Below are positions 2,913-25,691 of a DNA stretch of 25,809 bases, one piece after another. The notes beneath the pieces are model-generated. The model did no database searches. It was not told where the DNA came from and worked only from the letters and a program-made list of their open reading frames with translations. Source of the DNA: a virus. The position numbers and the translations under genes are program-made. The DNA lies in IMG/VR virus record IMGVR_UViG_3300035701_000251, positions 1 through 25,809 of that record. One strand, given 5' to 3'. Position 1 is the first letter of the stretch; the number at the start of each line of letters is the position of its first letter.

Positions 2913-3959
2913 ATGATCCACCGTTACCCAATTCAGCTCACGACCCTCGAAGAGGATTTCCGCGCCATTGGACTTCTCCCCAAGGAGAACCTCCATGAGG
3001 TTGATAATTCGGCCGAGCCGCGTGACATCCCGTCCCCCGATCCAAGCACGGACACGGGCAGCGATATGCAGGCGATGCCGGCGCGTAATAAGTACGCCAA
3101 GCAGCCCAAGCCGAAGATGGCGCCGACCGAGACGGACGACCACGACGATCCCGAGGATGCCGGCGCTACCCAGGGCGGCAAGAAGGGCGGCTCGTACAAG
3201 CCTGTCGCCCACGGCAAGGAAGCCAGCCTTGGTCGTAACGAGGCCGCCGAGTACCCCTCCAGCTACAAGACGCTGAAGGACACGATCATGAAGCGGGCGA
3301 CTCCGGCGGCGAACCAGGGTAAGGCTCCGGCCGTTGCTCAGGGTCTCGCCCCCGTCGACAAGCTTGCCGGTATGAGCAAGAAGCACGAGGCCGCCAACGT
3401 GAGCCGCGCAGCTGAGCTGGTCGGTGAAGTTGAGGCTCTCCTCGCTGGTTCGCAGATGGGTGAGGACTTCAACAACCTCGCGCACGGCTTTGCGCTCATC
3501 AGCGAGAACTGCTCGCTGCTTGCTGATCGCCTGGTCGATATTGCTGAGCACTACAACGTGGACAAGGCGATCTCCTCAATGGAGGAGCTGTACAACAACG
3601 CCATCGAGGCGTCGCAGATCATCGAGATGAAGGCCAAGAAGAAGGCCGACAAGGATGATGACGACGATGATGATGACGATGATGACGACACGATGGAGTC
3701 CATCAAGGAAGCCTTCCGCATCATGACGCTTCAGCTCATGGATGCCGTTGAGGCGTACGACGCGACCATCACCGAGATGAAGAAGGGTGATGACGACGAC
3801 GATGATGACTCCGACGATGATGATGATAAGGATGATGACGACGATAAGGATGATGACGACGATAAGGATGATGACGACGATAAGGATGATGACGGCATTG
3901 CCGCTAGGATGGCAAAGCTGAAGGCGGGCAAGGGTAAGAAGAACCCTTTCGGCAAGTAG
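2913..3959 (+). CDS. Aspartate-rich hypothetical protein, possible prohead core protein (348 aa)
   Basis: The N-terminal 130 residues look disordered, rich in Pro, Lys and Asp. Residues about 150-245 form a helical region (AAELVGEVEALL, ENCSLLADRLVDIAEHY). An unbroken run of twelve Asp follows at 248-259, a short helix, then a second acidic tract at about 293-328 made of repeated DKDDDD. The C-terminus is basic and Gly-rich. AGGAGA at 2901-2906 precedes ATG 2913. T4 has an acidic prohead core protein, gp67, in the same location; the link here is by position and charge only. Long Asp tracts could bind divalent cations or imitate DNA inside the prohead. A slippery heptamer near the stop suggests a longer -1 frameshift product (see 3944-4186). 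Confidence 0.8.
   Translation: MIHRYPIQLTTLEEDFRAIGLLPKENLHEVDNSAEPRDIPSPDPSTDTGSDMQAMPARNKYAKQPKPKMAPTETDDHDDPEDAGATQGGKKGGSYKPVAHGKEASLGRNEAAEYPSSYKTLKDTIMKRATPAANQGKAPAVAQGLAPVDKLAGMSKKHEAANVSRAAELVGEVEALLAGSQMGEDFNNLAHGFALISENCSLLADRLVDIAEHYNVDKAISSMEELYNNAIEASQIIEMKAKKKADKDDDDDDDDDDDDTMESIKEAFRIMTLQLMDAVEAYDATITEMKKGDDDDDDDSDDDDDKDDDDDKDDDDDKDDDDDKDDDGIAARMAKLKAGKGKKNPFGK
3825..3896 (+). repeat. Four tandem 18-bp units coding DKDDDD
   Basis: The 18-base unit GATAAGGATGATGACGAC occurs three times exactly (3825-3842, 3843-3860, 3861-3878). A fourth copy (3879-3896) ends GGC instead of GAC. The unit is in frame and encodes Asp-Lys-Asp-Asp-Asp-Asp. Near-identical DNA, not just identical protein, points to recent slippage or unequal recombination, so copy number may vary between relatives. 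Confidence 0.95.
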
Positions 3960-3986
3960 GGCTCAAGCTCGAAGAGCCTAGAGCCC
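3944..3986 (+). promoter_or_regulatory. Candidate -1 ribosomal frameshift signal
   Basis: The heptamer C_CCT_TTC (3944-3950) fits the X_XXY_YYZ pattern in the reading frame of the acidic gene. After a six-base spacer containing the last sense codons, a hairpin begins at the stop codon: TAGGGCTC (3957-3964) can pair with GAGCCTA (3974-3980) with one bulged G. An alternative pairing joins GGGCTC 3959-3964 with GAGCCC 3981-3986. Heptamer, short spacer and stem-loop are the classic three parts of a -1 frameshift site. CCC-TTT is not among the strongest bacterial slip sequences, so efficiency is uncertain. Confidence 0.45.
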
Positions 3987-4186
3987 GCAGGACGGCTTAT
4001 TCATCAGGACGCAGAGAAGTAGCGTTTGGTATAGAACCGAGAGACGGTCCAGGAGGAAAATCATTTAGAAATCCAAAAAGGCGTAAAAGGAAGTCTGATT
4101 TCGCTCCAGAGATGGATGTCAGCTTCAAATTGCCTGTGATTTCTAGATCTGATTTTCGTGGGACCTTCAGGTGGCTCAAAAGATAA
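3950..4186 (+). CDS. Open -1 frame: possible frameshift extension of the acidic protein (78 codons)
   Basis: The -1 frame relative to the acidic gene is closed by TAA at 3935-3937, opens just before the slippery heptamer, and runs without a stop to TAA 4184-4186. Shifting at 3944-3950 would give a 424-residue protein: 346 residues of the acidic protein plus 78 new ones. The extension is basic (FRNPKRRKRKSDF, FRGTFRWLKR), the opposite charge of the acidic body. Its stop forms a TAATG junction with the protease ATG at 4186. The same junction occurs at three clear gene boundaries here (11623, 12886, 25691). No ATG, GTG or TTG begins this frame until ATG 4112, which would give only 24 residues. 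Independent initiation, a sequencing error or chance remain possible. Confidence 0.5.
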   Translation, partial: RQVGLKLEEPRARRTAYSSGRREVAFGIEPRDGPGGKSFRNPKRRKRKSDFAPEMDVSFKLPVISRSDFRGTFRWLKR

Positions 4187-5778
4187 TGCCTAACGAAAAA
4201 CAACTACTCGTTGACACGTTCACCTTCAGGGCAACAGTCCTGGAGGAGAGCAAGTCTGGTCCGGGCAAGTACATTGCCCGGGGCGAGTTTGCGCGTGCAG
4301 ACCGCGCGACCGAGAACAAGCGGCTGTATCCGGCGACCTTGTGGGAGCGCGAGATCGGCCGCCTGGGCAAGCAGATGAAGGAGATGAAGGTATACGGCGA
4401 GCTAGACCATCCGATGGATGGTCGCACTCAGCTCAAGCGTGTATCTCACATCATTTCAGATCTGCGCCTTGAGAACGACGTCGTCGTTGGCACCGCTCAT
4501 ATCCTTGATACCGATGAGGGCCGTAACCTCAAGGCCATCCTCGATGGCGGCGGCGCGGTCGGTGTCTCGTCTCGCGGTTTTGGTACCACCAAGCCGAATC
4601 TCAAAGGCGAAGAAGTCGTCCAGCCGGATTACCGACTGATGACTTTTGACTTCGTCGCAGAACCAGCGCAACAGAGCGCATACCCGGTAGTTAACGTCGA
4701 GAGCGTCGAGTCTCGGCCAGCGGAGGCAGCCATGGATGAGAATATGACTTGGGAAGAGTTCAAAAAGGCTCATCCGCAGTTGGCCGAGCACTTCTCGGAT
4801 GATGCCCAGCGCGAATACGAGAAGAGGGGCGCTGAGATTTGGGCCAAGAAGATCCTTGGCGCCAAGCAGGAAGCCTCTACGAATCTTCGCGCCGAGTTCG
4901 CCGAGAAGCTTGAGGCCGCGATTGCGGCTGCCAAGAAGGAGATGGAGAAGACGGTCACCGAGCGGCTCATGAATGATCCGACGGTTGCCGGAGCCAAGAA
5001 GGCGCTTGGCGAGCTTAAGGACGTTCTCCGTCCGTTCATCATCCCGTCGGATGTTGAGAGCGTCGTCAAGGACAAGGAAGATACAATCGAGAAGCTTGAG
5101 TCCAAGCTCTCTGAGAAGGATCTTGAGATCGCCAACCTGCGCGTCGAGTGCGACAAGCTTGCTGGCATCGCCAAGGAAGCCGGCTACAGGTTTCACCTAG
5201 AGCAGAGGCTTCATGACGTCGGTCACGCTGACGAGATCCGTACTCTCGTTGGTGATGTGAAGCAGTACAAGTCTCTCAAGGAGATGGATAAGCAGATCGT
5301 CGGGATCGCTGAGTCTGTTATTGCCAGAGAGACCGACCAGGCGAAGCGCGATCAGCGCGTTGCCGCGCTTGAGGAAGAGGTTGCTACGCAGAAGCTCATC
5401 GCCGAGAAGGCGCTTGAGGCCAGCAAGCACCTCGCTGCCCAGGTTTATCTTGAGCAGCGCCTTGTTAACCATCCTAACCAGGAATATGCGCGCAGCTTGA
5501 CCGAGTCCCATCGTCCGCAGACGAAGGAGCAGGTTGATGCGCTACTGGCGAAGACCCTTCCAAAGCCGTCGATGACGGAAGACTTGGAAGCGGCTCGGGC
5601 CCGCGTTCGGAATCTTCTGAACAGCGGAACCCGCGAGTACCTGCAAGAGCAGGAAGAGCAAGGTTCTAAGGGCGGACGCCATGATGGCGCTGCTCGTGAC
5701 TATAACGGGCTCGGAGCGAATCTCAGTGAGATCCGTGCCCTATCAGGGCTGCCGGACAAGGGCACTCAGAGCAACTAG
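4186..5778 (+). CDS. Prohead maturation protease fused to scaffold (gp21-gp22-like)
   Basis: The N-terminal 175 residues look like a herpesvirus/T4-type prohead serine protease. GELDHP supplies the catalytic His (about residue 75), GVSSRGFG the nucleophilic Ser (about 128 or 129), and TFDFV an Asp (about 155) that may be the third triad member. The remaining 355 residues are Lys/Glu-rich and helical with coiled-coil stretches (about 288-332 and 375-420), as expected of a core scaffold. T4 makes these as separate gp21 and gp22. A motif with LEQRL occurs twice, near residues 335 and 421, suggesting an internal duplication. The ATG at 4186 is preferred because of the TAATG junction and AGGTGG at 4169-4174. 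A GTG start at 4171 would add five residues. The protease would cut scaffold and capsid after (I/L)xE sites once the prohead is built. Confidence 0.88.
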   Translation: MPNEKQLLVDTFTFRATVLEESKSGPGKYIARGEFARADRATENKRLYPATLWEREIGRLGKQMKEMKVYGELDHPMDGRTQLKRVSHIISDLRLENDVVVGTAHILDTDEGRNLKAILDGGGAVGVSSRGFGTTKPNLKGEEVVQPDYRLMTFDFVAEPAQQSAYPVVNVESVESRPAEAAMDENMTWEEFKKAHPQLAEHFSDDAQREYEKRGAEIWAKKILGAKQEASTNLRAEFAEKLEAAIAAAKKEMEKTVTERLMNDPTVAGAKKALGELKDVLRPFIIPSDVESVVKDKEDTIEKLESKLSEKDLEIANLRVECDKLAGIAKEAGYRFHLEQRLHDVGHADEIRTLVGDVKQYKSLKEMDKQIVGIAESVIARETDQAKRDQRVAALEEEVATQKLIAEKALEASKHLAAQVYLEQRLVNHPNQEYARSLTESHRPQTKEQVDALLAKTLPKPSMTEDLEAARARVRNLLNSGTREYLQEQEEQGSKGGRHDGAARDYNGLGANLSEIRALSGLPDKGTQSN

Positions 5779-5792
5779 AGCACGGAGGATTT

Positions 5793-7271
5793 ATGGAAGC
5801 GAGACAGCTAATGCAGACTGAGTCCCGGCGGTCAATTGCCGACAAGGGATTCATCCAATCTCTTATCGGCAAGTGGGGCGAACTACTTGAAGGTATTGAG
5901 AACCCCTATACCCGTGGCGTCACTGCCATGCTCATGGAAAATGAGTCGCAGTGGCTCCAGAACCTGGAGGAAGAGACCAAGACGATCAACGTCGGTTCCT
6001 TCACCAAGTTCATCTTCCCGGTCCTCAGGAGGGTGTTCCCCAACCTGATCGCCAACGAGATTGTCTCGGTTCAGCCGATGACAGCCCCGATTGGTGCCGT
6101 GTTCTTCTTCGACTACAAGTACGGGTCGAACAAGGGCTCGACGCAGGCCGGCGCGATCTTCCCGCGCGACTTCGATCGCGACTACTCTTCGGAGTACGTC
6201 CGTGACGAGCAGCTGGCGGTTGGCGATGGCGTGAACTTCGGCGGCGCTGGTGCGGCGCTGGCGGCGGTTCTTTCGTGGACCCCGGCACGCCCGCTGAACG
6301 CTGCAACCGGTTACTCGGTGCAGGTCCTTGAGATCAACGCGACCACTGGCGCGATCGTCCAGACTGCTACCGATAACGGAACTGGCGGTTTCACTGGTGC
6401 TGGTACCGGCGCAGTGAACTACGGTTCGGGCGCGGTGACCTCGTTCAAGTTCACCGTTGCGCCTGTTCTTGGCAACAAGATCACCGCTCGGTACTTCTAC
6501 GATGGCGAGCTGAACACCAAGATCCCGCAGGTCAACCTCGACATCACCAAGCAGCCGATCGAAGCGATCCCGCGTCGCCTCAAGGCTCTTTGGTCGTCGG
6601 AAGCGGCCGAGGATCTGCGCGCGTTCCACGGTCTCGACGCCGAGACCGAGCTGGTTTCGGGTATTGCTCAGGAGATCGCTCTTGAGATCGACCGCGAGAT
6701 CATCAATGACCTCTTCGTGACCTCGGCGTCGGGTCGTACCGACACCTTCTCGATGACGCCGCCCGCCGGCATCAGCGAGATCGACCACCTTCGGTCGATG
6801 ATCACGACGATCAGCAAGATCTCGAACTTCATCCACAAGGACACGCTGCGCGCTCCGGCGAACTTCCTTGTGACGTCGCCCGAAGTCTCGGCTCGCATCG
6901 CGCAGCTGACGACTCACGGCGACTTCCGGCCCCTCTGGGTGTCGGGTGGAGCGAGCCCGTACGGCCCGGCTGATATGCCGCGCCCGCTGACCCAGCACGG
7001 TCAGTTCGGTATCTACAAGGTCGGCACGCTGATGAACAAGTGGGTCGTCTATGAGGACCCCTTCTTCCAGAGTGACGCGATGTTGGTCGGTCTCAAGGGC
7101 GCGAGCTTCTTGGACGCTGGCTACGTGTGGGCGCCGTACATCCCGCTGCAGGTCACGCCGACCTTCCTGGATCCAGCTGACTTCAGCTTCCGGAAGGGTC
7201 TGCGTACCAGGTACGGTAAGAAGGTTCTCCGTAGCGAGTACTACGGTCGGATCACCTTCACTGGCCTGTAA
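5793..7271 (+). CDS. Major capsid protein, T4 gp23-like
   Basis: This 492-residue protein is the main capsid shell subunit, with an HK97-type fold expected from the gp23 family. Recognisable segments are KTINVGSFTKFIFPVLRRVF, NEIVSVQPMTAPIGAVFFFDYKYG (about residues 89-112), EIALEIDREIINDL and the C-terminal half with APANFLVTSPEVSARI. A (I/L)xE-type sequence, LLE at residues 31-33, is a plausible site for removal of an N-terminal propeptide by the neighbouring protease. Residues about 150-240 form a beta-rich Gly/Thr insertion that resembles a module in the tail sheath protein. GGAGG at 5784-5788 lies four bases before ATG 5793, and the gene follows the scaffold by 14 bases. A strong terminator follows. 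Identity is secure; the cleavage site is inferred. Confidence 0.94.
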   Translation: MEARQLMQTESRRSIADKGFIQSLIGKWGELLEGIENPYTRGVTAMLMENESQWLQNLEEETKTINVGSFTKFIFPVLRRVFPNLIANEIVSVQPMTAPIGAVFFFDYKYGSNKGSTQAGAIFPRDFDRDYSSEYVRDEQLAVGDGVNFGGAGAALAAVLSWTPARPLNAATGYSVQVLEINATTGAIVQTATDNGTGGFTGAGTGAVNYGSGAVTSFKFTVAPVLGNKITARYFYDGELNTKIPQVNLDITKQPIEAIPRRLKALWSSEAAEDLRAFHGLDAETELVSGIAQEIALEIDREIINDLFVTSASGRTDTFSMTPPAGISEIDHLRSMITTISKISNFIHKDTLRAPANFLVTSPEVSARIAQLTTHGDFRPLWVSGGASPYGPADMPRPLTQHGQFGIYKVGTLMNKWVVYEDPFFQSDAMLVGLKGASFLDAGYVWAPYIPLQVTPTFLDPADFSFRKGLRTRYGKKVLRSEYYGRITFTGL

Positions 7272-9244: not shown

Positions 9245-11623
9245 ATGCCCGGATTTCACAGCAAGAAGGAAAAGCGTCAGGCCAAGCACATCATCGCTGG
9301 CTATAAGAAGCGTGGCGTTCCGATGAAGAAGGCCAAGAGCATCGCGTGGGCGACGGTCAACAAAGAGCGCAGCGAGCAGACTGAGGCTTGGCAGTTCAAC
9401 GGCGCCGGCCAGCCGGTGTTCATGGGTAATGCTGGCAACGTTAGCCAGTTCGATCCCAGCGGCCAGGTTTCGCCGGGCTCTAGCTATATTCCTGACGAGG
9501 TTGCCAAGATGCTCGTTAAGGAGAGCGGCCTCAGGAAGAACGATACGTGCCCCAAGCGGGTCATCATCGGATACCTGGAGTCGATGGGGCTCTCAGCGGC
9601 TTTGGCCGTCGATGTGGCCATGGTTCTTCGTAATGTCTACGGAATCACCCCCACGTTTGATGAGTCGACGCTCTATGCGCGTTCGGGTTCGTTGATCGAG
9701 GAGCTGACCGGCGTGGTGAGCGAGAGCTACCCGATGCCGTTCGCCATCGAGGTCGAGGACGAGACCGAAGAATTGAACGAGGTCAACCTCATTGGCTCGT
9801 TCCTGCAGAGCGAACTCATGGAGTCGAAGGACGAGGAATACGATCTCGTTCTCGCGCACATGGCGACCCTGACCCCGCAGGAATTCTGCGACGTGGTTGA
9901 TTTTCATGAATGGGTTGGCACCGAGGTGTTTAATTACATCGAGTTGATCGCCGTCGACGGCCCTAACGGGGCTGCCGAGTCGGTTGTCGAGGGGCTCTGC
10001 TGGCCTCAGCGCATCCAGTTCATGCCTGAGCACATCCAGGATCTATTCGACGAGGATGCTGCCGATGATGTGATCAAGAAGGGTACCGTTCGCACCAGAA
10101 GCAAGTTGCCGGTAACGGCAAAGGTTTCAGTTCCTGGAAAGATTCCTCGTCGTCCCGGTAAGGATCCAAAGAGGGTGCCGCAGGCGGTTCCATCGTTCAG
10201 GAAGCAGATGGCCAAGCATGGCCAGGATCTTCCAAGCGATCCGCTAGCCGCTAAGAAGCCTGGCGCTGCACTGGCCGCGCATCAGGCCAGGAAGGCTGCG
10301 GCTTCTGCGCCAAGCCCTAGTCCGAGCAAGATGAAGCGCGCTGGCGGAACAGCCGTTGGGCTCATGAAAAAGGTTGGCGCAGCAGCCAAGTTTGTCCATA
10401 CGCCAAGCGAGCACAATCCCGACGTTGGTCCTGGCCTGAAGAAGGCTGGCAAGGCCGTCGCCAAGGTTGGCGGAGCCATTGGTAAGGGCATTCTTAAGGG
10501 TGGCGTACATGCGGCTGGTGGTTTGGCTGGCGCAGCCGGTCACGTTGGCGGGTCGGCGATCCGTGGTCTCGCTCGTGGACTATTCGGCGCAAAGAAGAAG
10601 GATGCTGAGCATAGTGGCGAGCACGATTCCGGCGAGAAGGCTGTTGCCCGGACCAGTAAGCCAGAGAAGAAGCCTGGCCTGCTGAGTCGCGCCGTTGGCC
10701 ACATTGCCAGGGCGGCGAGTGGTTTTGCTAAGCACGTTGCGCATCACGCCAAGGAAGGCTGGAAAGAGGCGACGCCTGGTCTGCGCGCGATGGCCGGTCA
10801 CGGCGATGGTGACAAGGCTGAGGCTCCCAAGAAGAAGGAAAGGGTCGCAACGTCCGGTGTTGGCGAAGCTACTCTACGGAGCGGTTCGCTGCTTAGTGAG
10901 ATGACGATGGTTCTCAATGGTGGGCCGATGCCGGAGGAGTCTGAGGACCAGGATTTGGTCAGATCTCCAGCTGAAGTTGTAGCCGCCTTTGAGGCGACCA
11001 CCGTTGTTGACATGGCGGTCCTTGAGGCAATCGGCGATCTGGACTGGAAGGACGTCGCTGGTGTTGCTGGTTTCATGATGATGGAGCCAGACAAGTTCCA
11101 GTCGCTCATCCAATCCTTCAAGGAGAGCCGGGCCGCATTTAGGGCGGAGTGGTTTCGCCTAGAAGAAAGCGGCGACAAGCCATCCTGGATGAGCATCGGT
11201 TCCTTCGTTACGCTGTCGAAGATGACCCTGGACGAAGGCGTCGTCCCACGTCTGGTCTATTGGGCCGCCAGGGCCGTCCAGGATGCCGATGAGGGCGTTG
11301 CATCCTACGTGGCCGAGGCTTACCCAGAGCTTGGCAAGACGGTCTACGGGCCGGCTGGCGACCCCAAGGAAGGTCCGCAGATCACCAAGTCGTTCATGAC
11401 GCCGCAGCCCGCCGGGACAATGACCCCAACGGATAGCGAATGTACGACCCGTATGTTCTCGGATCCGGAGGAGCGCGAGAAGGCCCGCAAGGAGAAGCTT
11501 GCGGACGTCATGGCCACCATTGATGGGATGCGTCAGCAGGCAGCTGCAGCAGGTGTTCCACCTGAGGGTATGTTCCTGAACCTCTACCGCGACATGCATA
11601 GAGAGAAGGTTCGCTACAGCTAA
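9245..11623 (+). CDS. Large hypothetical protein with histone-H1-like centre (792 aa)
   Basis: There are three regions. Residues 1-40 are basic and helical (SKKEKRQAKHIIAGYKKRG, KKAKSIAWATVNKE), like small stand-alone proteins common in phages and bacteria. Residues about 90-275 are acidic and globular-looking. Residues about 277-540 are a long Lys/Ala/Gly/Pro-rich low-complexity tract, with AVAKVGGAIGKGILKGGVHA and AARASGFAKH-like patches resembling histone H1 or cationic membrane-active peptides. The C-terminal 250 residues are again acidic and helical. It lies between connector and tail-completion genes, five bases after a GGAG-type site. A DNA-contacting internal virion protein or ejection protein would fit the charge, but this is inference. 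No enzyme motif was seen. It ends in a TAATG junction with the next gene. Confidence 0.75.
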   Translation: MPGFHSKKEKRQAKHIIAGYKKRGVPMKKAKSIAWATVNKERSEQTEAWQFNGAGQPVFMGNAGNVSQFDPSGQVSPGSSYIPDEVAKMLVKESGLRKNDTCPKRVIIGYLESMGLSAALAVDVAMVLRNVYGITPTFDESTLYARSGSLIEELTGVVSESYPMPFAIEVEDETEELNEVNLIGSFLQSELMESKDEEYDLVLAHMATLTPQEFCDVVDFHEWVGTEVFNYIELIAVDGPNGAAESVVEGLCWPQRIQFMPEHIQDLFDEDAADDVIKKGTVRTRSKLPVTAKVSVPGKIPRRPGKDPKRVPQAVPSFRKQMAKHGQDLPSDPLAAKKPGAALAAHQARKAAASAPSPSPSKMKRAGGTAVGLMKKVGAAAKFVHTPSEHNPDVGPGLKKAGKAVAKVGGAIGKGILKGGVHAAGGLAGAAGHVGGSAIRGLARGLFGAKKKDAEHSGEHDSGEKAVARTSKPEKKPGLLSRAVGHIARAASGFAKHVAHHAKEGWKEATPGLRAMAGHGDGDKAEAPKKKERVATSGVGEATLRSGSLLSEMTMVLNGGPMPEESEDQDLVRSPAEVVAAFEATTVVDMAVLEAIGDLDWKDVAGVAGFMMMEPDKFQSLIQSFKESRAAFRAEWFRLEESGDKPSWMSIGSFVTLSKMTLDEGVVPRLVYWAARAVQDADEGVASYVAEAYPELGKTVYGPAGDPKEGPQITKSFMTPQPAGTMTPTDSECTTRMFSDPEEREKARKEKLADVMATIDGMRQQAAAAGVPPEGMFLNLYRDMHREKVRYS

Positions 11624-13807: not shown

Positions 13808-14347
13808 ATGACTACCCTTACCAAAGATAAGCCGAACCCCTGGTGGGTTACCGGACTCGTTGATGGCGAGGGCTGTTTTTATGCCGACTTGTCATTTAGG
13901 ACGAAAGTTACCTCTTCAGGAAGGTCCGTGCAGTGCGTTGAGCTAGTTGCCGAGATGGCGATTGCCTTACGTGCTGACGATAGATCTGCTTTGGAGAAGG
14001 TTCAGTCTTATTTTGGCTGTGGAGTGCTTCAGGGGAAGCGCTCTTCAAGGAATTCGCCATCGAACCTAAGGGCGGGGATCAATCCACAGCCACAGTTCGC
14101 TTTCAAGATTCGCAAGGTCGGAGATCTTGTCAATCTTGTGATTCCTCATTTCGAGGCATTTCCTCTCCAGACAAAAAAGTCGAATGACTTTGTGGTTTGG
14201 GAAAAAATCGTTGAGTTCGCAGCAACTGAACTGAAGGGCTACAAGGGTTGGCTTCGTCGTCATCCGGAAAAGGTTGATGAATTGGGCCGCATGTGCGCTG
14301 ACCTCAAAGAGGCACGCAAATACCGTCCGCAGGCCGGACTCAACTAG
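13808..14347 (+). CDS. LAGLIDADG homing endonuclease, free-standing (179 aa)
   Basis: This enzyme class cuts a long, specific DNA site and spreads its own gene by repair copying. WVTGLVDGEGCF (residues 13-24) is the LAGLIDADG helix, with Glu21 the likely catalytic acid. The later segment VIPHFEAFPLQTKKSNDFVVW is also typical of the LAGLIDADG_1 group. There is one motif, so it should act as a homodimer, and 179 residues is normal for that form. It is not inside an interrupted gene: the tail-terminator gene ends before it, and the sheath ribosome-binding site begins in its stop codon. Only a weak GGAAAA lies upstream of ATG 13808. Location next to an essential tail gene is common for phage homing genes. 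Target unknown; probably the junction in endonuclease-free relatives. Confidence 0.88.
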   Translation: MTTLTKDKPNPWWVTGLVDGEGCFYADLSFRTKVTSSGRSVQCVELVAEMAIALRADDRSALEKVQSYFGCGVLQGKRSSRNSPSNLRAGINPQPQFAFKIRKVGDLVNLVIPHFEAFPLQTKKSNDFVVWEKIVEFAATELKGYKGWLRRHPEKVDELGRMCADLKEARKYRPQAGLN

Positions 14348-19591: not shown

Positions 19592-20155
19592 GTGAGCATT
19601 CAAAGATCCAGTCCGGCGTCCGAGAACTCCAGCTTAGAGGAGTGGAAGGCCAAGGTATTGGAGCGGGATGGCAACTCCTGCGTCAACTGCAGCGGACAGG
19701 ACAAGATTGCCGCGTGCTTCGTTATTCCAGCTGAGGTTGGCGGCAACCTTCGGTTATCCAATGGGGTAACCGTTTGCCGAGAGTGCAGGATTGCTGCGGA
19801 AAGCAGCCGTGTGCTGCCTCAGCGAATCGACAATAAGACGCCGATCAATTTTCTGATCAGCGATAGCTTGCATCGGACCGTAAATCAGTACGTTCACAAC
19901 GGTTCGAAGTTCGGCAGCGTGTCGGCCCTGATGAGATCGATGATCTCATCGTTCATCACGCAACCAGAACTCTATGAAGACCTCCAGAGCTGGCAGGACG
20001 CTGGTTCTGACGTGAAGGTGAATGGTTGGGTGGACGGTGTCCAATATCACGTGTTCAAGGGCATGTGCAGGAACAAGGGACTTAGCTACACCGACGCCCT
20101 GAAGGGGCTGTTGCTTGTGGCAATTGACGGCTACGAGCCGACAGACTCTCACTAG
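19592..20155 (+). CDS. Degenerate HNH-type zinc domain fused to a ribbon-helix-helix-like segment (187 aa)
   Basis: Residues 16-66 have an HNH treble-clef layout: W18, VLERDG, C30-x2-C33, VGGNLRLSNG, C62-x2-C65. The metal-binding cysteines and N57 are present. Where active enzymes have HH, this has F43-V44, and the closing CH is C-Arg66. So the four cysteines may bind zinc but cleavage looks lost. Residues about 85-122 (a strand NFLIS, helix DSLHRTVNQYVHN, FGS turn, helix VSALMRSMISSF) match ribbon-helix-helix DNA-binding proteins. The C-terminal 65 residues are unassigned. GAGGT at 19581-19585 precedes GTG 19592 by six bases. It may be a former homing or nuclease gene turned DNA-binding regulator. 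Confidence 0.65.
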   Translation: MSIQRSSPASENSSLEEWKAKVLERDGNSCVNCSGQDKIAACFVIPAEVGGNLRLSNGVTVCRECRIAAESSRVLPQRIDNKTPINFLISDSLHRTVNQYVHNGSKFGSVSALMRSMISSFITQPELYEDLQSWQDAGSDVKVNGWVDGVQYHVFKGMCRNKGLSYTDALKGLLLVAIDGYEPTDSH

Positions 20156-20162
20156 AGGTTTT

Positions 20163-20939
20163 ATGGATCCGCAGATTGAAATTCCAAAGGCATCGATCGA
20201 CAGCTATGAGCTTCCGTGTGGTCACGTAGACCAGGACGGGAACGTCCATACGTCGATCACAGTCCGAGAAATGACAGGTGAGGACGAAGAAACCCTTGCC
20301 GCTCGGAACATGCCGACAACGAAGAAGATCAACAAGATCTTGGTTCATTGCACGGAGTCAATTGGCCCGTACTCAGGCCAGGCTTTGAATACGATCATTC
20401 CAGATTTGACACAGGGTGACCGTATTTTCTTGTTGATGGCTATCAGACGGGCCAGCCTGGGCGACGAGATGCCATTCCAGACGACCTGTCCCTCCTGCAA
20501 GGAGGAGGCACGGTTCGTTTTGGATCTTGGAGACCTAGAGACCAAGAAGATGGCAAATCCGGGGTTGCGATCATACGATGTCGTGCTCCCAAAGACAAAG
20601 TACAAGATTCGAATGAAAGTGCTGACTGGCCGAGGCGAGGAGGTAATTTCCCGAGCCGCGACCAAGGGTAAGGACCTTATCTCTACGGCGATCTTGGCTC
20701 GGATCGAATCCATCAACGATAAGCCAATCACGATCGACGATTTGAAGGCGTTGCCTCTCATTGACCGCAACTTCCTGCGCGGCGCATGGGAGGAGCGGGA
20801 GGGTGGCGTGGACACCGAGATCCAGATTGATTGTCCCAGCTGCGCTACCGCCTACGAGACGGAGTTGGATATCTCGCAGCAGGGTTTTTTCAACCCCTCG
20901 GCAACATTGAGTCTCTGGAAGAAGAAATATTCTTTCTGA
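20163..20939 (+). CDS. gp26-like / tail assembly chaperone protein (258 aa, short form)
   Basis: It lies just ahead of the tape measure gene, where tail-assembly chaperones are found. It looks like the T4_baseplate (gp26-type) group, with helical VREMTGEDEETLAARN and GDRIFLLMAIRRASLGDEMPF. It has two probable zinc-holding CPSC motifs (residues 109-112 and 224-227). It ends DISQQGFFNPSATLSLWKKK. The ATG 20163 is used because GAGG (20155-20158) precedes it; the stop of the HNH-like gene overlaps that site. A slippery T_TTT_TTC at 20885 would yield a longer product (see below), the classic arrangement for G/GT-type chaperones that keep the tape measure soluble during tube assembly. Chaperone versus baseplate-hub role is not settled by sequence. 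Confidence 0.75.
   Translation: MDPQIEIPKASIDSYELPCGHVDQDGNVHTSITVREMTGEDEETLAARNMPTTKKINKILVHCTESIGPYSGQALNTIIPDLTQGDRIFLLMAIRRASLGDEMPFQTTCPSCKEEARFVLDLGDLETKKMANPGLRSYDVVLPKTKYKIRMKVLTGRGEEVISRAATKGKDLISTAILARIESINDKPITIDDLKALPLIDRNFLRGAWEEREGGVDTEIQIDCPSCATAYETELDISQQGFFNPSATLSLWKKKYSF
20885..20891 (+). promoter_or_regulatory. -1 ribosomal frameshift site T_TTT_TTC
   Basis: In frame the codons read GGT TTT TTC; the heptamer T_TTT_TTC (20885-20891) is a canonical slippery sequence. A -1 slip continues in an open frame whose product joins smoothly to the chaperone. No strong stem-loop follows; a weak CTCG...TGAG pairing is possible. The run of six T bases alone could allow slip. Confidence 0.65.
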
Positions 20940-21076
20940 TGGAATGTTGGCGGGGGTTGTCCGAGAGGGACATCTTGCAGATGCCGTCGTCTCGCCGGAT
21001 CAGAATGATCATCAAGAAGTCTGACCTGGAAAAAGAAAGACAACGTCGAGAGGAACGAGCGAGAAACAGGAGATGA
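20891..21076 (+). CDS. Frameshift extension of the chaperone (61 codons)
   Basis: After a -1 slip at 20885-20891, 61 more codons are read to TGA 21074-21076, giving a 304-residue long form. The extension is helical and basic (SLEEEIFFLMECWRGLSERD, DLEKERQRREERARNRR), like the C-terminal extensions of tail assembly chaperones. Alternatively it can be translated alone from ATG 20939, which overlaps the short form's stop as TGATG; that would give 45 residues. Placement before the tape measure gene and the perfect slippery site favour a frameshift. Confidence 0.65.
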   Translation, partial: QPLGNIESLEEEIFFLMECWRGLSERDILQMPSSRRIRMIIKKSDLEKERQRREERARNRR

Positions 21077-21239: not shown

Positions 21240-24200
21240 ATGGGACTTAATTTCCTCGGATTAGGCTTCTCTCTCGGCGCCCAGGACAAGGGTCTTGGCG
21301 ATGCCATCAAGAGCACGTCTGCCGGCCTGATGAACATCTCCAAGACGGTCGTTGATATCGGCTTGGCGTCGGCCAAGATGATCTTCAAGGCGCCCAATTT
21401 TGGGCCAGCTATGGGCCTGGCACAGACGCTGGCGAATGACGTCAAGCTCACCACGACTGGCATGGAGGCCTACGGCGTAGCCGCATCAAAGGCTACCAAG
21501 GCGGCGTTTGCCGGGCTTGGGCTCGATGCCAAGAAGGCCCAGGAGATGGCTGGCCAGGCCTCCTCGATTGCCTTCGACATGAATACCGATGTGAACGCCG
21601 TCGCTAAGTCGATGGCCGCTCAGTCTCAGGCTGGGATTAAAGTTGCCGAGCTTGGGTTTGATACCCAGGAAGAATTTCAGAAGGTCATGTCGGTGACTGG
21701 AACGGATGCGACTGCGCTGGCTGCAACGCTAGGGACGATGCAGCACAGCATGGGGATGACGCCAAAGGCGATCAAGGAAACCGTTCAGGGAGTCGTTGCC
21801 CTTGGCACTAAGATGGGTGTGGGCAAAGAAGCTCTGGCTGGAATGATTCCAACTATTGGTCTCCTTAAAGAGCAATTTCAGAAAATGCCCTCGGCATGGC
21901 CCCCGAAGAGAATGCAGGAATTCGTTAAGGGTACTACGGCGGTTGCTGGTGCGCTTACGAGTCTTGGAGCGCCAGCGGATCAGGCGTTTGCTTCCGCAAA
22001 CAAGATCGGAGAAGTCCTTCTTCAGGGTCAGACTGGAATGAAGAAACTGTATTCTGGTCTCGCCGACAAGATACCAGATGGCATGAAAGTGCTTACAGAG
22101 AATCTTGGCGACATGGACGATGCGTTCAAGATGCTTAACGAGAGCCCAGATCAGTTCATGTTGAAAATGGGCAATCTGGTCAAGCAGGTCAAGCACACGC
22201 CTGGAGTGACCGATGCGAGTTTGACCAGGATTAAGGAACAGATGTCGGACACGTTCGGTCCGGCAGTGCTGCAGGCGTTCACTGACGAGGGTCTCGATAA
22301 GCTTGGCCCCGCCTTAAAGGATGCGCAAAAGCCGATTCCCGGTGCAGAAAAGGCCATGCATCAGATGGCCGCTGCTTACGAGGACGGTCGCACCTACGCT
22401 GAGCGATTTGCTATTGCTCAAGACATAGTTCAGACGAAGCTCAAAAAAGTCCACGGCGTGATGAGCGATTCGAAGTATCTCACTACGTACATTGCCCAGG
22501 GTAAGGAATTTACCAACTGGGCGGACAAGACTGCTTCTAAGGGTGGCGCATTGGGCAAATTGACCTCTGCCTTGGTGGAGGTCACCAACCGTGGCTTCGG
22601 TGGATTCCTCGCTTCGCACAGCAAGTTTGGTTTTGCGATGAGCGAAGGCATCAAGCTGATGCAGCCGATGCTGCAGTATTTGCCGGCCATGAAGATGGCG
22701 TTTAGTGCCCTGGCGAGTCCAATTGGTCTCGTTGTGGGCGCGCTAGCTGGCCTCTACTTCTTGTTCAAAGATCTGAACAAGGGCAAGGACAGCATCATCG
22801 CACCCATGCTCAAGAAGTTCATGGCCGCTGCGCCAGTCCTCATCCATAAGGTTTTTGAATTCGCCAAAGATGTGTTCAAGACCATCTTTGATGTGCTTTC
22901 AAAGGTGGACTGGGACAGTGTGATGAACACGGTTAGCGATGCCTTTAAGACGATCTTCAGCACGGTCTTCGACGTGCTCGCAAGTATCAATTGGGGCAAG
23001 GTGATTGATGCGGTTTCTGCGGTCTTTGAGAAAGTGTTCAGCACCGTCTTCGATGTGCTTGCGAGCATCAACTGGGGTGCGGTAGCTGACACGATGTCGG
23101 CTATCTTTACCAAGATCTTCGATACTATTTTCGCAGTGATCGAGAAGATTGACTGGAACAAGGTTGGCCAGCTTCTTGGGACGATGTTTGGAAAGGCCAT
23201 GGAGGTTGCTGCCACGATATTGAGAGGGGCGGTCAAACTAATAGCCAGGATCTTCCAGTGGCTTGGCGATGTTGACTGGGGATCGGTTGGCAGCAAGTTG
23301 ATGGGATATATCCTGCCGGTCATTGATGTGGTGATCGATGCCATTGGAGCGTTGTTTACGCACTTGCCGGCGATGGTGGTTAAGGCTGTCAATGGCGCGG
23401 TTGATTTTCTTCTTGGCGCGCTAACGAGGATTGAGGATTACCTTGTCAAGAAGTTCCCTGACGCCGCCAAGCCGATCATCTTCATCGTGGAGATGCTGAA
23501 GGCAGCTGTGAAAATCGTTGGCGAAGGGCTGAAGTTGGCATTTAAGGCCGTGTGGGCGGTTCTTGGTGCAGTCTGGGACATCATCAAGACCGTCGTTGGC
23601 GCAATCGTGGACGTCGTGGTTGCTGTCAAGGATGCCGTTGTGTGGATCGGCGATGCAGTTGGCAAAGTCGGAAGCTTTTTTAGCAGCGTTGGCAGTGGTA
23701 TCAGGGACTTCTTTACCGGCAGTAGTTCCGAGGCTCAGGTAAGCATCAACGACACCATGAAGCTGGTCCAGGACTCCATTAACAAGACGGTCCAGATCGC
23801 TAATGAGGCGGCCAAGAAGGCCAAGGATGAGCGGGATGCCGATCTTAGAGCCCACGGTGTGGCTACCGAAGGCTATGTAAAGACCGTTGAGGGTCAGATT
23901 CTGAAGTCGACCGAGGCGTTCGTTCGATTTGAAAATGACGCTACCGGCGCCGTCATAAAGGTTGCTCACGCGACCGCTGATTACACAAGGGCGATCGTTG
24001 GAGGCGAGGTCGCCAAATCGATGGATGACATGCAGGCGGAAATCCGTCGACTGAACGATGTGGCCAAGCAGTACAAGTCGGGTACCGATGAGTGGCACAA
24101 GGCGATGGATGAGTCCATTGCTCACGCTGATCAGGTTCACGATGATTACTTCAAGAAGTTCGGCGCTCGCTGGGACATTATGTATCAGCGTAACGAGCAA

Positions 24201-25691
24201 ATGAAGGATCAGTATCAGCTCGAAAACAAAACGCTTGAGCAGGCAAAGCAGGCAGGCGTTGGGTACTACGACGCTATGATAGCCAATCAGCAGAAGCTGT
24301 CCGAAGGTGCGATGAATGACATCTTGCACCTGGAACAACTCAGGCAGAAGGGCGAGATCACCGCTGACGAGTTCGAGAAACGGAACGCTAAGATTAACGC
24401 GCGGGTCGCAGGCGACGTCATTCGAATGAAGGAGTCGGCTGATATTGTTTCTGGAGATCTGGCTACGATATTCAAACAATATTCGAAAAATGCCGAAGAC
24501 ACCGCCGATTTCGCCATGCGTGCGTCATTTCAAATGGCCAAGGTGTTTGAGGCTAACGGCAAGATCATCATGGATAAGATCCCAGAAGGCGCCACCGCCA
24601 CCAGGGATGCTGTCAAATCGGCGTTTGACGATCTGTCCAAGGCGCAGTCGGTAGAGATCGAGAAAATCATCAACAACGGCAAGCTCACCGCTGACGAGAT
24701 GCAGAAGCAGGTCAGGGGCGTTCAGGACAAGTACAAGGGCATGCAAAATGATTATGCCCAGGCGGTAGAGCATTACTCCAAGGAGCTTGCGGAGGGCAAC
24801 ACGGCGGGCCTTGATAAAATGATTGCTGACAATAAGGCCAAACTAGATGGCGCCACCAAGGAGTTGAAGGTCAAAGCTCAAGAGGGTGCCGGTGAGATTC
24901 AGAAGATGTACGGCACCACCAACGCTGAGACTCTTGATTCTATCCACCAGATCGGAGCACTCAAGCCAGCGGTGTTCACCAAAAACATGGAAGCCGTTCA
25001 GGGTACCTTCTTGAAATTCCTTGGAGTGATGGACGATAAGGGCAAGAAGATCATGGAGAACACCACCAAATCGTTCAATACGATGTGGAAGACCATGAAT
25101 GATGGATGGAAAGCCAATGAGGATCTGGTGGTTAAATTCACCGACTCAGCAGCAGCCCATGTTGATGCGTACTGGAGCAAGGTAATGATGGCTGCCAATA
25201 ATGCAGTGGTTGGCTTCATTGGTTTGACCAAGCAGATCGAGCTAGGTCTCTCGGCGATGGCGCGCACGCTGAACATCATGGATCTACTGGCTTCGCCAGA
25301 TCAGATCACGAAATGGGCAGCTTCTGTTGTGTCAGCATTGGCGTATGCCTTCCGTACCGGAGATGCTGCGGACTCTATGATCTCTGCGTCCTACAACAAG
25401 GCGCTGGCCATGGCGGCCGAGATCCAGGCGAACGCAGGAACGGCTACACCTGACACGGCGTCCATGAAGACTTCGCCGTCGTCTTCTGCGATCACAGCTG
25501 CGCAAGGCCTGCTGACTGCGATCAACCGTCCTGCTTGGGCAAACGATCCGACTGCTCCAATTCCTGCAACGCTTGAGTCGATTAACCAGAACCTTATCGC
25601 AGCCCTGGCTCAAATGAACGCAGCTGCGCAGGGCAAGGCGGTTACGGCAGCTAAGGCGGCTAAGCCCAACGTCACGAGGGCAGGGAAGTAA
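21240..25691 (+). CDS. Tape measure protein (1483 aa)
   Basis: This is the longest gene in the window, placed right after the chaperone-type gene as in most long-tailed phages. The protein sets tail length and leaves the tube ahead of DNA. At the usual rough value of 0.15 nm per residue it predicts a tail near 220 nm. N-terminal 480 residues are Ala/Gly/Lys-rich and helical. About residues 484-511 form a hydrophobic stretch (SPIGLVVGALAGLYFLF). Residues 531-639 are four tandem 27-residue hydrophobic repeats with a conserved Trp. Long coiled-coil stretches follow, and the C-terminus is Ala-rich with a low-complexity end. No lysozyme or peptidase motif was found. Ribosome-binding sequence is weak (AAGGGA about 12 bases upstream). 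Confidence 0.92.
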   Translation: MGLNFLGLGFSLGAQDKGLGDAIKSTSAGLMNISKTVVDIGLASAKMIFKAPNFGPAMGLAQTLANDVKLTTTGMEAYGVAASKATKAAFAGLGLDAKKAQEMAGQASSIAFDMNTDVNAVAKSMAAQSQAGIKVAELGFDTQEEFQKVMSVTGTDATALAATLGTMQHSMGMTPKAIKETVQGVVALGTKMGVGKEALAGMIPTIGLLKEQFQKMPSAWPPKRMQEFVKGTTAVAGALTSLGAPADQAFASANKIGEVLLQGQTGMKKLYSGLADKIPDGMKVLTENLGDMDDAFKMLNESPDQFMLKMGNLVKQVKHTPGVTDASLTRIKEQMSDTFGPAVLQAFTDEGLDKLGPALKDAQKPIPGAEKAMHQMAAAYEDGRTYAERFAIAQDIVQTKLKKVHGVMSDSKYLTTYIAQGKEFTNWADKTASKGGALGKLTSALVEVTNRGFGGFLASHSKFGFAMSEGIKLMQPMLQYLPAMKMAFSALASPIGLVVGALAGLYFLFKDLNKGKDSIIAPMLKKFMAAAPVLIHKVFEFAKDVFKTIFDVLSKVDWDSVMNTVSDAFKTIFSTVFDVLASINWGKVIDAVSAVFEKVFSTVFDVLASINWGAVADTMSAIFTKIFDTIFAVIEKIDWNKVGQLLGTMFGKAMEVAATILRGAVKLIARIFQWLGDVDWGSVGSKLMGYILPVIDVVIDAIGALFTHLPAMVVKAVNGAVDFLLGALTRIEDYLVKKFPDAAKPIIFIVEMLKAAVKIVGEGLKLAFKAVWAVLGAVWDIIKTVVGAIVDVVVAVKDAVVWIGDAVGKVGSFFSSVGSGIRDFFTGSSSEAQVSINDTMKLVQDSINKTVQIANEAAKKAKDERDADLRAHGVATEGYVKTVEGQILKSTEAFVRFENDATGAVIKVAHATADYTRAIVGGEVAKSMDDMQAEIRRLNDVAKQYKSGTDEWHKAMDESIAHADQVHDDYFKKFGARWDIMYQRNEQMKDQYQLENKTLEQAKQAGVGYYDAMIANQQKLSEGAMNDILHLEQLRQKGEITADEFEKRNAKINARVAGDVIRMKESADIVSGDLATIFKQYSKNAEDTADFAMRASFQMAKVFEANGKIIMDKIPEGATATRDAVKSAFDDLSKAQSVEIEKIINNGKLTADEMQKQVRGVQDKYKGMQNDYAQAVEHYSKELAEGNTAGLDKMIADNKAKLDGATKELKVKAQEGAGEIQKMYGTTNAETLDSIHQIGALKPAVFTKNMEAVQGTFLKFLGVMDDKGKKIMENTTKSFNTMWKTMNDGWKANEDLVVKFTDSAAAHVDAYWSKVMMAANNAVVGFIGLTKQIELGLSAMARTLNIMDLLASPDQITKWAASVVSALAYAFRTGDAADSMISASYNKALAMAAEIQANAGTATPDTASMKTSPSSSAITAAQGLLTAINRPAWANDPTAPIPATLESINQNLIAALAQMNAAAQGKAVTAAKAAKPNVTRAGK
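22833..23156 (+). repeat. 27-residue tandem repeats in the tape measure gene
   Basis: A hydrophobic unit with FDVLASINWG (or close variants) recurs with its conserved Trp codon at 22911, 22992, 23073 and 23154, exactly 81 bases apart. A fifth weaker copy has its Trp at 23277. The middle two units are the most alike, so the array probably grew by duplication. Regular 27-residue spacing in a rod-like protein may set length or pack a membrane-active segment. Confidence 0.9.

Follow-up and report, generated by a model that had tools for sequence, protein, structure and literature searches.

Gene order around the acidic head gene

A virus record from IMG/VR raises the question of how a basic peptide can be made from a reading frame that lies between an acidic head gene and the prohead protease gene and offers no standard start codon. 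The DNA analysed, here called the window, is a stretch of 25.8 kb. Its head genes, all on the + strand, comprise a T4-type portal protein of the gp20 family (42-1853; Pfam PF07230, E=6e-73), an acidic prohead-core-like protein of 348 aa (2913-3959; net charge -42, TAG stop at 3957-3959), a T4-type prohead protease with a long, scaffold-like C-terminal extension (4186-5778; PF03420, E=2.5e-16; PHROG 207) and a major capsid protein of the gp23 family (5793-7271; PF07068, E=2e-70). The order portal, unknown ORF, acidic gene, basic peptide (hereafter the tail), protease and capsid was found in the family loci that carry these genes.

The acidic protein returned zero Pfam or PHROG matches, and its structure model was of low confidence (pLDDT 57.6), with a helical region at 157-296 only. 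Its homologues share a C-terminal helical region, and an N-terminal TT-EEDF--IGL is common to the acidic upstream proteins compared. The long extension of the protease perhaps represents a gp21-gp22 fusion. Elsewhere in the window, a free-standing LAGLIDADG endonuclease lies amid structural genes (13808-14347; PF00961, E=3e-14), a weak HNH endonuclease-like ORF (19592-20155; PHROG 7370, E=2e-6) overlaps the start of a baseplate-family gene, and an ORF of 792 residues in the head/tail region (9245-11623) is without a Pfam or PHROG match.

The slippery site and the -1 frame

The acidic ORF ends AAC CCT TTC GGC AAG TAG, and the heptamer C_CCT_TTC (3944-3950, + strand), claimed as slippery in the initial annotation, is indeed present in the X_XXY_YYZ register of the acidic frame. 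The -1 frame also proved to be as described there: it is closed by a TAA at 3935, is open from 3938 to 4183 and ends at a TAA (4184-4186) which overlaps the protease ATG at 4186 in a TAATG junction, so that the ORF (3938-4186, + strand) supplies 78 codons after a slip at 3950. A slip on CCT TTC would give ...GKKNPF-RQVGLKLEEPRARRTAYSSGRRE..., a product of 346 + 78 residues in which, as had been stated, an acidic body is joined to a basic tail. In the window, ATG, GTG and TTG are all absent from the -1 frame ahead of the conserved tail motif, and many stops interrupt the third frame in the tail region. A search of the frameshift site gave neither a terminator nor a + strand promoter match. C_CC.U_UU.C has been named as a site of high-level frameshifting in E. 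coli (PMC4066793); slipperiness was judged throughout by E. coli rules, which may not be those of the host.

A conserved basic tail in the -1 frame

With the -1 frame peptide alone as query, six relatives of 68-83% identity were recovered. Searches with two profiles (A1 and A2) then gave 104 confirmed candidates, of which 80 were kept, and removal of duplicates left 75 non-redundant IMG/VR loci with head-gene synteny, each encoding a peptide of the form R-RRTAYSSGRRE... upstream of a T4-type protease. The core motif RRTAYSSGR lies at 3986-4012 (+ strand) in the window. Relative to the upstream gene, the tail occupies the -1 frame in 70 of the 75 loci.

Beyond the acidic stop, differences at codon positions 1, 2 and 3 of the tail summed to 237, 158 and 654 over 23 pairs, and dN/dS ranged from 0.03 to 0.32 among the computable pairs of non-trivial divergence, several pairs being saturated at synonymous sites. 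This third-position bias and these low ratios indicate that the tail is a real protein under strong purifying selection. Alignment of homologues, proposed with the initial annotation as a check, thus revealed the heptamer, the open -1 frame and the synonymous-biased change alike. A new conserved peptide family is thereby defined in uncultivated T4-like phages, whose basic protein standard annotation would overlook in the frameshifting loci.

The family had no match in Pfam, PHROG or PDB, two single-member Pfam matches (E 0.04-0.05) having the look of noise; none of 50,697 phage records gave a credible match to the peptide, genome_contigs yielded no confirmed relative, and the locus had no Rfam match. 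The nearest isolate capsids, at about 35% identity, are those of Listeria LIS04, Streptococcus GXN1, Microcystis Mel-JY01 and Flavobacterium immuto. The tail was not seen in the intervals examined of these four phages or in that of cyanophage P-TIM40; in Rhodothermus RM378 the portal-protease interval was not located.

Slippery heptamers across the family

A heptamer of the X_XXY_YYZ type occurs within the last 12 codons of 46 of the 73 acidic genes, as against 12 of 387 control gene ends taken from other genes of the same loci. C_CCT_TTC is retained in 5/5 close relatives, and so in all six members of the window clade. In 30 loci, G_GGA_AAC or G_GGA_AAA stands 0-3 nt before the stop, with bases varying on both sides; this set was selected for carrying the heptamer, and the flanks are its informative part. 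All seven heptamer positions stay the same, in register with frame 0, while the adjacent bases vary. The rare codon GGA or CCT is used at the 41 sites examined, and the product of the usage frequencies is about 10^-36, a figure to be read with the loci not being independent; GGA makes up 1-27% of the Gly codons in genomes with the tail family. When tails were grouped by single linkage at 70% identity, the heptamer was found in a majority of members in 22 of 44 clusters; a cut-off of 50% fuses the clusters and robs the test of power, and the loci are thus not independent.

On a portal and capsid tree, in which one locus (L010) is oddly placed, perhaps through a partial portal, the slippery type turns over between C_CCT_TTC, G_GGA_AAC/A and C_CCT_AYC while the frame relation is kept. 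C_CCT_AYC is the sole candidate in four loci (L015, L017, L044 and L085). There, the A site re-pairs poorly and only a P-site slip works well; C_CC.U is among the slip-prone tetramers in E. coli (PMC4066793). Five loci in which no own start was detected either carry no listed heptamer or are not in the -1 relation (L021, L073, L075, L077 and L117). Four of these (L073, L075, L077 and L117) have no clear heptamer, and L117 ends in A_AAG. The fifth, L021 (4780-4998), is the only close relative with a tail in the +1 frame, and the G6 run that precedes it hints at an indel or at slippage of another kind.

RNA structure downstream of the heptamer

The initial annotation had also placed a hairpin six bases downstream of the heptamer. 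A possible stimulatory hairpin is present at 3959-3986 (+ strand; outer stem 3959-3964/3981-3986, inner stem 3967-3970/3974-3977), though the final base of the stop is already the first of its stem, which makes the spacer 8 nt. Its proposed role as a stimulator had a mixed outcome. In the window the hairpin is no more stable than shuffled sequences (z -0.11). The six members of the close clade keep the 5' arm and an alternative 3' arm (3974-3979) with one G-U change, but the stem is nearly invariant there and its retention thus says little. In a clade of six other loci (L023, L048, L059, L084, L089 and L091), a two-part stem 7 nt after the heptamer covaries above slid controls. Over 36 loci, the 70 nt 3' of the heptamer folded more stably than windows of matched GC content from the same locus (median percentile 0.12; Wilcoxon p = 7e-6, relatedness uncorrected).

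Relatives in which the tail has an apparent start of its own

In about 17 loci the tail has an apparent start of its own, most often overlapping the stop; ATGA or GTGA overlaps are seen, for example, in L052, L113, L115, L122, L124, L125, L127 and L128. For L113 and a few other own-start loci the automatic choice of the upstream ORF was unreliable, and these were counted as own-start only. Several own-start tails open with a short leader, such as MSWVPLEWLFE-APRKRR. L140 (tail motif at 5021), which the tree places inside the own-start clade, has neither ATG nor GTG but a G_GGA_AAC 21 nt ahead of the stop, a possible switch from an own start to frameshifting. The apparent expression of the same peptide in two ways in sister groups offers a natural experiment on what leads phages to adopt frameshifting.

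Proposed mechanism and alternative readings

On the sequence comparisons above, a programmed -1 ribosomal frameshift very probably operates at the 3' end of the acidic prohead-core gene. The majority of ribosomes would terminate at the TAG and yield the acidic core protein, while a fraction would slip back by one base on CCT-TTC, the P and A site tRNAs re-pairing on CCC-TTT, and would read the 78 extra codons into a protein of 424 residues with the conserved basic tail. We infer the slipping itself and its rate, unlike the conserved tail, the -1 relation, the slippery sites, the synteny and the missing start codon, which are there to be read in the genomes.

The basic peptide might instead be encoded by a small gene in its own right, expressed through termination-reinitiation at a non-standard start near the acidic stop. 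The separate group of relatives with an ATG or GTG of its own, most often overlapping the stop, speaks for such a route, as does a CTG that overlaps TGA in some heptamer loci. In the window and most heptamer loci, however, no ATG, GTG or TTG precedes the conserved block, the codon at the stop differs from locus to locus (GTA, ATA, CTA, CTG) whereas the heptamer, read in frame 0, does not, and the choice of GGA or CCT codons is left unexplained, which makes reinitiation quite improbable. Somewhat less improbable, though still unlikely, is that the frameshift serves mainly to tune translation of the protease, slipped ribosomes ending at TAATG and restarting on the protease ATG. Many members of the clade have TAATG or something close to it at this junction, but own-start relatives have similar junctions, and coupling of this kind needs no conservation of amino acids, yet the tail is conserved. 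Such tuning could operate alongside production of the tail.

Slippage of RNA polymerase at a run of bases, with mixed mRNAs as the result, would suit the few loci with long runs (A7 in L071, an A-run in L053, T7 in L078), but GGGAAAC and CCCTTTC contain no homopolymer longer than three, and we consider it very improbable. As to a sequencing or assembly error that split one gene, the same -1 arrangement recurs in 70 loci from many separate assemblies, which refutes it for the family and leaves it a negligible probability, even if the +1 relation beside the G6 run in L021 could be one such error.

A candidate role in the head

Programmed frameshifting thus being the preferred reading, the composition of the tail suggests what the fusion may be for. 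The tail is strongly basic, averaging a net charge of +13.6 in about 61 residues, and in 31 of 74 loci an (L/I)-x-E motif lies six residues before the RRTAY block; elsewhere in the tail, 5 loci have the motif one residue away, and no other scanned offset has it in more than one locus. The T4 protease gp21 cleaves after L/I-X-E (PMC9026906). At the position of the relatives' motif the window has L-E-E (3968-3976, + strand), a candidate prohead protease site that is weaker than those of the relatives because a Pro follows, and in the KKGGSW clade the (L/I)-x-E motif is absent. The capsid proteins carry [LM]-x-E at an aligned N-terminal stretch in nearly all loci, the window included.

Joined to the core protein, the basic peptide would enter the growing prohead in a fixed proportion, and cleavage after (L/I)-x-E by the neighbouring protease could, in many relatives, then keep it in the head alongside the DNA. 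Location in the head and cleavage are here inferred from the motifs and the gene order. That the basic peptide is head cargo, delivered in one group through the frameshift fusion and in the other through a leader, seems to us about evenly balanced. The fuller scheme, in which fusion to the scaffold core would put a conserved basic, DNA-facing peptide in the prohead, the T4-type protease would then free it, and the fusion would replace the N-terminal targeting leader of the sister phages, is more tentative and falls a little short of that.

Comparison with known systems

The initial annotation had held that a frameshift in a head core protein would be new, and the literature agrees with this as far as open-licence papers were searched: none reported a frameshift for a prohead core or scaffold gene, and the searched text of a review mentions neither 'scaffold' nor 'prohead' (PMC5009743). 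For phage tail chaperones and major capsid proteins, -1 frameshifting is known (PMC5009743). The present case would add a head core or scaffold gene to the genes of tailed phages in which frameshifting is known.

The gpG/gpG-T chaperones of lambda-like phages likewise use a -1 frameshift near the end of an assembly gene to place a C-terminal domain on a fraction of the product (PMC5009743). In contrast to gpG/gpG-T, the acidic gene is a head-core candidate and sits in the stretch from portal to prohead protease rather than directly ahead of the tape measure, for which the candidate is at 21240-25691. In the window, a T4 baseplate-family protein (20115-20939; PF12322, E=6e-17) is followed by a small ORF (20939-21076) in a TGATG overlap. 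These two, just upstream of the tape measure, look like a T4-type tail chaperone pair using restart and not frameshifting.

Frameshifting likewise produces a head protein in two versions from a single gene in T7/T3 (gene 10), Lactobacillus phage A2 and Listeria phage PSA (PMC5009743). Theirs are major capsid proteins with surface or Ig-like extensions, whereas the candidate here belongs to the internal core and its tail is basic.

The map position is that of gp67 and gp68 of T4, which also lie between gp20 and gp21. The Asp/Glu-rich end of gp67 and the Lys/Arg-rich end of gp68 recall the acidic body and the basic tail, but in T4 these are two separate genes. Homology of the tail to gp68 was considered and rejected, none being detectable (hhalign probability 0.2%).

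T4 internal proteins with a capsid targeting sequence, such as IPIII, offer a further parallel, since there too a basic peptide is involved. The leader of the own-start relatives, which ends in L-x-E followed by Ala or Gly, resembles the T4 propeptide of about 10 residues that is cut by gp21 (PMC9026906). In the window clade, in contrast to IPIII, targeting would come from the frameshift fusion to the core and not from an N-terminal leader.
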